DNA of 64,000 nucleotides from Paracoccus caeni (GTDB taxonomy: Bacteria; Pseudomonadota; Alphaproteobacteria; Rhodobacterales; Rhodobacteraceae), in assembly GCF_016629665.1 (NCBI RefSeq), contig NZ_JAEPRQ010000001.1:1178001-1242000 (forward strand), read 5' to 3'. Position 1 is the stretch's first letter. Every line of letters begins with the position of its first letter. Below the pieces are notes generated by a model, which was given only the letters and a program-made list of their open reading frames with translations, had not been told where the DNA came from and did no database searches. Position numbers and translations under genes: made by a program. Below, piece by piece: positions 61,857 to 64,000 of the stretch.

Positions 61857-62243
61857 CTAGTTCAGGATCGGCACCTGCGGTTCTGCATCGTCAAGCCGAA
61901 GGTGCAGCCCGTCGCGGTTGAAGAACGCCCCCTCGCGGATCAGGGTCCGGTCGCCATTCAGCGCCCGGACCAGCGCATCCAGCCTGTCGCGGGCAAGTGC
62001 GTCCTCAACCAGACCGTCGCGATCCGCAAGGAACATGGCGACCGCGTTCCACGACACGCCTGCAGCATCGAAATGCGCTGCCATGTCGGGCCATGTGATC
62101 TCATCCCCGATCACATGCAGATGGGTCGAGCGCAGCAGATCCACCCGACCATCCCCAATGCCGATCAGCACGATCAGCAGGGTAAAGCCGTCCGTCTCGG
62201 CATAGGTGGCGCGCAGCCAGTCGTCGAAATCGGTGTCGTTCAT
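61857..62243 (-). CDS. Hypothetical protein (128 aa)
   Basis: This soluble protein starts MNDTDFDDWLRATYAETDGFT and has hydrophobic strands (TLLIVLIGIGDGRVDLL) and a C-terminal helix/strand part ending EPQVPILN. No domain is recognised. It is convergent with the Lrp gene, seven bases apart, without a visible terminator between them. Confidence 0.7.
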   Translation of the reverse strand: MNDTDFDDWLRATYAETDGFTLLIVLIGIGDGRVDLLRSTHLHVIGDEITWPDMAAHFDAAGVSWNAVAMFLADRDGLVEDALARDRLDALVRALNGDRTLIREGAFFNRDGLHLRLDDAEPQVPILN

Positions 62244-62468: not shown

Positions 62469-62675
62469 TTATGCAAGCGCGAGGTTCTCGGCGCTTTCGC
62501 GGCCATCGCGGCCAGCCTGAACGTCATAGGTCACTGCCTGACCGTCGTTGAGGCGGGTAAGACCGGCGCGCTCAACAGCGGAGATGTGCAGGAACACGTC
62601 TTTTCCACCGTTTTCCGGAGCAATGAAGCCAAAGCCTTTGTCGGAATTAAACCATTTCACGGTGCCATTAGCCAT
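62469..62675 (-). CDS. Cold-shock domain protein (CspA family)
   Basis: This 68-residue RNA/ssDNA-binding protein has RNP1 KGFGFI and RNP2 DVFLHI. The ATG at 62675 (MANGTVKWFNS) is chosen from the typical start; an in-frame ATG five codons earlier is less likely. These proteins act as RNA chaperones. The upstream stretch to selB may include a long leader, as is common for csp genes. Confidence 0.95.
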   Translation of the reverse strand: MANGTVKWFNSDKGFGFIAPENGGKDVFLHISAVERAGLTRLNDGQAVTYDVQAGRDGRESAENLALA

Positions 62676-62979
62676 CGTGTTATTCTCCATTTTGACCACC
62701 CGCGGGATTGCGGTGGGACGGATCAGTCGATCAAAAGCAGACTGAGGCCCGTAGGAGACAGCGCAGATAAAAGGCATCACCAGCGCTTCCTAGCACGACT
62801 GGAAAGATTTGAACAGGGTTTCGCCGTCACGATTGGGTCGGTGCGTCTGCCGGACAGCGCGAAACCGCTACCTGACCTACGGGCGAGTGATGGAGGCGTC
62901 CCCCGTATGTTTCCGGCCTATGTCCGAGGTGAAGGCCGCTCCGAGCGCTGCCGCAAGCATGCAAATCCGAACAGTTCAG
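62676..62979. other. Region between selB and the cold-shock gene
   Basis: These 304 bases hold no convincing gene. They should contain the promoter and 5' leader of the cold-shock gene and the 3' flank of the selB-selC transcript. No clear terminator was seen between the two. Confidence 0.55.
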
Positions 62980-64000
62980 CTAATTCTGCTGAAAATCTGG
63001 CGGAAGGGAATGGGAGTCGAACCCACCCGGGACAGGCTCGCTGCCCCAACCGGTTTTGAAGACCGGCCGCCCCACCGGGGACGATTCCCTTCCGTTATCG
63101 CCGAAAAGATCGACGCGATGCGGGTTGATGCGGCGCAGATCGCCGCGCCGCAATGTGACGCCAAGGCGGTCGAAGAAATCGAGGATCTCGATCGCCACTT
63201 TGCGCCCGTTCTGCACCCGATCACGAAACGCGGGCGCGGTAAACCACCCGTCTTCCGTCCGATCCGCAACGTCGCAGATGATCGCCACCATCTCGGCCAC
63301 GACCTCGCGGGCGAAGAAATGATCCCGTGCGATCTGATCGGTCCGGCCCAGCTTCTGGGTCAGCTTCAGCACCCGGCGCACCTCGCGCTCGTCGATTTCG
63401 TATTCGGTGGCGAAGTCGCGGACGCGGGGCGGACGGAAGCGGTCGTCGCCCTGAAGCGCCGGGGCGATGCGGTCCCATAGCGCCTGATCCTCGGGCGACA
63501 GGCGGACCTCGTGACCCGGCAGGCGGATGAACGCGCCGTCTAGGACAAGGTGACCGGCTGCGGTCTCGGCATGCAGGAAGGTCAGGAAGATGTCCTTGGG
63601 CAGGCGCGGTTGCAGCGTCAGGCGCAGCTTTTCGCGACCAAGGCCCGACAGGTCGGGATTGTCGCCGTGGAACTGCTCCAACACCTCGGCGGTCTGGTGG
63701 CGGAGCGTGTCCAGCGCCTTGGGGGCAATGGCAAGATCGCCGATCCGCGCGGTGCCCGCCGTCTCGACAATCGCCGGGATCGCTTCGGGCGACAGGCTGC
63801 GGTCGCGGGCGAAGGTTGCCAGATCCACCGGGGCCACGCGGGTCATTGCGGTCAGCGCCTTGGCCGGGTCGTCAGTATCGGCGGCGGCGATCAGGGCCAG
63901 ACGCTCGGGGCCGCGGCGCTTGCGGGCAGGGGCGCGCAGGTCAAGGAAACGCCCGCCGCCGATGGTGCGGCTGGCCGAGACATCGCGCAGGATGAAGCGG
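62980..64000 (-). CDS. selB: Selenocysteine-specific elongation factor SelB, C-terminal part (5' partial)
   Basis: SelB carries Sec-tRNA to UGA codons marked by a SECIS hairpin. The visible 340 residues begin with RFILRDVSASRTIGGGRFLD, the last strand of elongation-factor domain III, and continue with the winged-helix repeats that bind SECIS RNA; the last ends near RKVAIEILDFFDRLGVTLRRGD. The family normally ends about here (VDLFG), but this frame continues through the whole tRNA-Sec gene and stops with TAG at 62980. The N-terminus lies right of the window. Confidence 0.93.
   Translation of the reverse strand, partial: RFILRDVSASRTIGGGRFLDLRAPARKRRGPERLALIAAADTDDPAKALTAMTRVAPVDLATFARDRSLSPEAIPAIVETAGTARIGDLAIAPKALDTLRHQTAEVLEQFHGDNPDLSGLGREKLRLTLQPRLPKDIFLTFLHAETAAGHLVLDGAFIRLPGHEVRLSPEDQALWDRIAPALQGDDRFRPPRVRDFATEYEIDEREVRRVLKLTQKLGRTDQIARDHFFAREVVAEMVAIICDVADRTEDGWFTAPAFRDRVQNGRKVAIEILDFFDRLGVTLRRGDLRRINPHRVDLFGDNGRESSPVGRPVFKTGWGSEPVPGGFDSHSLPPDFQQN
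62998..63093 (-). tRNA. selC: tRNA-Sec (anticodon TCA)
   Basis: On the minus strand the 96-nt sequence starts GGAAGGGAATCG. The 8-bp acceptor stem (GGAAGGGA / TCCCTTCC), the anticodon loop CTTCAAA with anticodon TCA between a CCGGT/ACCGG stem, the long variable arm (GGGGCAGCGAGCCTGTCCC region) and the encoded CCA are all as expected for selenocysteine tRNA. The whole gene is contained in the 3' end of the selB reading frame. Confidence 0.95.

Follow-up and report, generated by a model that had tools for sequence, protein, structure and literature searches.

A tRNA-Sec gene nested in the selB reading frame of Paracoccus caeni, an arrangement of uneven occurrence among its relatives

The window analysed here is a stretch of 64,000 nt from Paracoccus caeni, and the locus of interest is a run of co-directional genes, fdoG(Sec)-fdoH-fdoI-fdhE-selA-selB-selC, in which selC comes last. 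An in-frame TGA separates the two halves of fdoG, as befits a Sec-containing formate dehydrogenase, and 4-nt overlaps are drawn at fdhE/selA and selA/selB in the ORF list. The features around the 3′ end of selB are as follows.

63094..64000, minus strand: 3′ portion of selB preceding the tRNA; the gene extends past the window (TIGR00475 selB, 414 bits on the full frame; Pfam SelB-wing_2, SelB_WH_2nd_bact and SelB-wing_3)
63100..63114, minus strand: codons for VDLFG, the usual SelB C terminus (SelB stops 0–7 residues past the DLF-like motif in 20/20 same-genus genomes with selC elsewhere)
63094..63099, minus strand: two-codon linker GAT AAC (Asp-Asn), free of stops, from VDLFG to the tRNA (sequence)
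62998..63093, minus strand: tRNA-Sec (selC), 96 nt with encoded CCA, whose frame 0 reads GRESSPVGRPVFKTGWGSEPVPGGFDSHSLPP (ARAGORN; Rfam RF01852, 85 bits; translation)
62980..62997, minus strand: five codons for DFQQN and the TAG stop of the extended selB frame (sequence, translation)
62469..62684, minus strand: cold-shock-domain gene, between selC and the displaced ORF (Pfam PF00313, 83 bits)
61857..62243, minus strand: 128-aa ORF (MNDTDFDDW...), starting 736 nt beyond the selB stop (tblastn, 66–78% identity to ORFs in 14 nested relatives)

Past VDLFG the selB frame enters tRNA-Sec at a codon boundary, traverses all 96 nt of it and continues for five sense codons to the TAG at 62982–62980 (...GTC GAT CTT TTC GGC GAT AAC / GGA AGG GAA ... 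CCG CCA / GAT TTT CAG CAG AAT TAG), so that the extended selB, counted from its first ATG to this stop, has 676 codons. The tRNA-encoded part, GRESS...SLPP, thus opens with Gly (GGA) and closes with Pro (CCA). ARAGORN places the tRNA at 62998–63094 on the minus strand (97 nt), and the RF01852 match spans 63093–63002, followed by a discriminator G and the encoded CCA to 62998; we therefore assign tRNA-Sec a length of 96 nt and place G1 at 63093. The RNA fold of 62940–63180 is stabler than that of shuffled sequences (z −2.67); it contains the acceptor, D, anticodon and variable arms, plus an imperfectly drawn T arm. Sequence, translation, ARAGORN and Rfam together bear out the overlap as a sequence-only reading had described it, running across the whole tRNA to the TAG at 62980. 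Its geometry for RNase P is likewise correct: were the enzyme to cleave at the 5′ end of the tRNA, the selB mRNA would end exactly after AAC, without a stop codon.

The selB stop of the window does not overlap the start of the next ORF. The displaced ORF at 61857–62243 matches nothing in Pfam or NCBIfam at E 0.001, and its relatives lie directly 3′ of selC, overlapping the selB stop, in 14 nested relatives; it may be one of Mukai's ORF1/ORF2. A search of 62600–63600, confined to sigma-70-like sites, returned no candidate promoter for selC. Nor do the codons of selB betray an internal selC promoter: across 62 rows (L015, L017–L020, L061 and L097 excluded), the last 25 aligned columns have no consistent drop in third-position entropy relative to those upstream, although late columns are few (four-fold sites 1.114, n 4, versus 1.153, n 42; two-fold 0.730, n 9, versus 0.762, n 34; six-fold 1.089, n 9, versus 0.897, n 46). 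Synonymous variation has no dip at the selB 3′ end in the same 62 rows. A literature search on RNA start sites in Paracoccus listed nothing useful.

The arrangement has been known in kind since 2021, and the window is another case of it. Mukai 2021 (PMC8124441) described alphaproteobacterial selB genes with selC nested inside them, likewise in this frame, and put forward the same hypothesis of RNase P cleavage and a nonstop mRNA. The text names a few Rhodobacterales groups and presents the finding as the first of its kind, no complete tRNA having been reported inside a bacterial coding frame before; the tRNAs there are mostly 96 or 93 nt, with a CCA or CCN end, and 'in many cases' the stop and the next ORF's start overlap. 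The window shares with those pairs a whole tRNA-Sec in the selB ORF in direct orientation, its 96-nt length, the Gly (GGA) start and Pro (CCA) end, and linkage to an fdoGHI-selAB cluster for a Sec-containing formate dehydrogenase. Unlike many of them, it has a cold-shock gene in between and a stop free of any next-ORF overlap. In the partial overlap of Dyella and Luteibacter (PMC8124441) the selB frame enters the tRNA as it does here but stops at tRNA nucleotides 46–48; the selB stops of L055 and L139 fall in the same place, where that of the window does not. A more distant likeness comes from the mitochondrion of Armadillidium vulgare, where, as Mukai 2021 relates, tRNA-Lys lies inside the cox1 coding frame and a comparable competition has been proposed; this case differs in its mitochondrial setting and compact genome. 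Mukai 2021 demonstrates no tagging, nonstop message or tailed SelB. A 2026 review (PMC13188914) restates the nested selBC hypothesis; among the papers listed by a search of the literature from 2021 on, and in passages of that review, we found no experimental test of the consequence of nesting, and only Mukai 2021 on nested selBC itself.

How widely the overlap is kept was judged from a census of selC loci. Among 101 genomes of the genus, 79 have selC: 23 loci are nested, 1 has the selB stop inside the tRNA, 35 have it before the tRNA and 20 are without selB within 700 nt upstream, so that 35/59 same-genus pairs with selB at most 700 nt upstream are not nested. A family sample of 394 genomes held 12 with selC over 65 bits, the window and one same-genus genome among them, and contributed one further nested locus from another genus (L012). 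With two Pseudogemmobacter loci included, 24/91 selC loci of the genus and family set are nested. From an extra set of 12 relatives' contigs (8 Paracoccus, 4 Pseudogemmobacter), L073 and L076 alone enter this 91-locus table, L068–L072, L074 and L075 being set aside as duplicates of genomes already in it and L077–L079 for having no selB match upstream of selC (tblastn, query core). A class-wide sample of 385 genomes yielded 55 with selC, the window's own included; among the other 54 loci, 2 are nested (one genus), 1 stops inside the tRNA, 24 stop before it and 27 are without selB nearby, where selB was sought within 800 nt, some loci lie at contig ends (for example, L135) and the HMM could miss a distant SelB. 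L109, with a gap of 459 nt, is counted as stopping before the tRNA. The comparison of related SelB C termini proposed by the sequence-only reading thus came out mixed, with an overlap that recurs and is lacking in most pairs of the genus. In L103 and L104, the D-arm region of selC (ATCAAACCCGGTGGTTTGG) differs from that of most other same-genus selC genes.

Many of the non-nested pairs come close to the tRNA. The selB stop lies 0–2 nt from it at 16 of the 35 genus loci that are not nested, and RNase P would therefore cleave there at the stop codon or just past it. The stop codon directly abuts tRNA nucleotide 1 in L083, L084, L085, L090, L100, L106, L107 and L108, so that the cleaved message would have its stop codon as its last codon.

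An open frame through tRNA-Sec is weak evidence alone, and its recurrence is the signal. The tRNA is open in most frames (83, 90 and 78 of 91 selC loci for frames 0, 1 and 2, respectively), such that loss of one stop codon suffices for nesting. The frame that is used is nevertheless constant: frame 0 in 24/24 nested loci of the 91-locus set, in 2/2 of the class sample and in both loci that stop inside the tRNA, versus phases 0, 1 and 2 in 15, 14 and 15 of the 44 non-nested selB genes of the 91-locus set. This single shared frame looks non-random, with the caution that these are raw counts of sequences that cluster on the tree, and that the independent cases of nesting are for this reason much fewer than 24. 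The linker from the (D/H)LF motif to the tRNA is 3 residues in the window (GDN) and 3, 7, 10, 12 or 21 in nested relatives. Use of one frame throughout, preserved across linkers of various lengths, is a hint of some selection on the frame and is not what an overlap that is simply tolerated would predict.

On the best SelB tree (68 rows, tail omitted; L061 left out because only 89 residues were recovered), the nested state requires 5 changes or more; when strongly supported branches alone are counted, 1 is forced, and the basal branches are left open. Few origins of nesting would be compatible with this tree, and the apparent lability rests partly on weak branches. A local contrast surrounds L116: the codon preceding the tRNA is CAG there and TAG in L100, L106, L107 and L108, in a stretch whose neighbouring codons vary too. 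L116 alone among them also has a TAA that overlaps the start codon (ATG) of the following ORF of 351 aa, the others having CAA. The forks around it carry bootstrap values of 84–94. L116 may have acquired its nested state recently, together with coupling, and is the only locus that looks like a fresh gain.

The best explanation is probably a nested selB-selC pair of the Mukai 2021 kind that is tolerated and labile. The fdo-sel transcript would supply the selC RNA from its 3′ end, and each RNA would meet one of two fates. In the first, the tRNA folds and RNase P cuts its 5′ end, which would give tRNA-Sec and a stopless selB message whose ribosomes would need rescue by tmRNA. In the second, ribosomes would cross the tRNA and yield SelB with 39 extra residues, probably without function. 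Nesting probably lowers SelB output somewhat, and in related species read-through would bring ribosomes to the overlap with the start of the next ORF; for the window, which is without this stop/start overlap, its loss would be the simplest account. The genome encodes tmRNA (298.5 bits) and SmpB (180.5 bits), two factors that could rescue such a message, in keeping with the proposed call on trans-translation. The overlap is dispensable, given the share of same-genus pairs that do without it; its role may be to fine-tune SelB or to couple selB to the ORF that follows, or it may simply be tolerated.

Coupling to the next ORF could itself be the reason for the extended frame, with ribosomes that pass the tRNA re-initiating downstream and the tRNA merely in their way. 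In 16/24 nested loci the selB stop overlaps the start of a following ORF that is 60 aa or longer (12 as ATGA, 3 by 8 nt and 1 as TAATG); the overlapping ORF is a relative of the window's 61857–62243 ORF in 14/16, with other ORFs in L097 and L116. A TDFDDW-type ORF within 1.3–1.9 kb downstream of selC is found, in raw counts, at 16/24 nested versus 0/44 non-nested loci, the copies of the window and L097 being further off, and L116 combines its lost stop with a TAATG that its sisters do not have. Against this, 8/24 nested loci, the window among them, have no ORF of at least 60 aa over the stop, so coupling cannot explain their frame except by inheritance; L082 has a 55-aa ORF that overlaps the stop by 11 nt, below the threshold, and L046 a 5-codon ORF. 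Moreover, 11 non-nested loci have a 350–351-aa ORF of another type starting 14–25 nt past the tRNA with no such overlap. Coupling as the reason for the frame is conceivable, and we regard it as doubtful.

A regulatory switch, proposed by Mukai 2021 and again by the sequence-only reading, would have SelB and tRNA-Sec as alternatives from each transcript that hold their ratio, with the overlap kept by selection. The junction at a codon boundary, the presence of tmRNA and SmpB, the recurrence of nesting in frame 0 and prior publication of the hypothesis (PMC8124441) speak for it, and regulation by mutually exclusive fates is plausible. What tells against it is how often the overlap is missing, in 24/27 class-sample pairs as well as the genus pairs counted above, and the 20/79 same-genus selC loci that are without selB within 700 nt upstream. 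Mutual exclusion would hold for the single RNA molecule only, and was already published in 2021; as a required device for setting the SelB:tRNA-Sec ratio, the overlap fails, because 35/59 same-genus loci do without it. We consider a selected switch of this kind unlikely.

The tRNA-encoded tail is read-through rather than a SelB domain, judging from the 20/20 unlinked genomes of the genus whose SelB ends 0–7 residues past a DLF-like motif; a tail is present only where the tRNA adjoins. The usual C terminus had been placed near VDLFG, and these genomes agree. In the 339-residue piece of SelB within the window, VDLFG occupies residues 296–300 and the tRNA-encoded part begins at residue 303, while Pfam and solved-structure (PDB) homology to SelB stops by residue 290. 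That the tail is a functional part of SelB is highly improbable: its amino acids are nearly invariant in 7 aligned nested sequences, but the tRNA imposes this by itself; the tail is missing from the same-genus genomes whose selC lies elsewhere, and homology to solved SelB structures ends before it. An AlphaFold2 model (7 sequences) is poor at the C-terminal part (mean pLDDT 62.8; residues 274–339 below 50) and says nothing on the tail, because the low-pLDDT stretch also takes in part of the known winged-helix region. Remnants of a tRNA in unlinked selB, of the type reported for S. meliloti, are absent in 20/20 same-genus genomes, and open frames of 1,088–1,092 aa in three unlinked genomes, considered as C-terminal extensions, proved not to be such, their SelB ending at DLFG or DLFGEA. 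One genome (G440) has a second, divergent SelB-like frame (L205, 32% identity) beside a closer SelB (L194, 62%).

We thus favour, as the likely reading, nesting as a tolerated and evolutionarily labile arrangement and not an essential switch. This analysis adds a census across the genus, the SelB end that is the default where selC is unlinked, the case of L116 and the absence of coupling in the window. More speculatively, and on balance we think it improbable, the frame through the tRNA could be under selection, ribosome passage against RNase P on the nascent tRNA acting as a cis-acting titrator of SelB and tRNA-Sec that in coupled species would also meter the TDFDDW protein. Paracoccus suits testing, having nested, abutting, spaced and unlinked selB-selC pairs in one genus, and L116 is useful for such a test in differing by one base from its non-nested sisters at the stop codon next to the tRNA. 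Were the frame a cis-acting titrator, the genus would offer a natural strength series: nested, stop abutting the tRNA, stop further upstream and selC unlinked.
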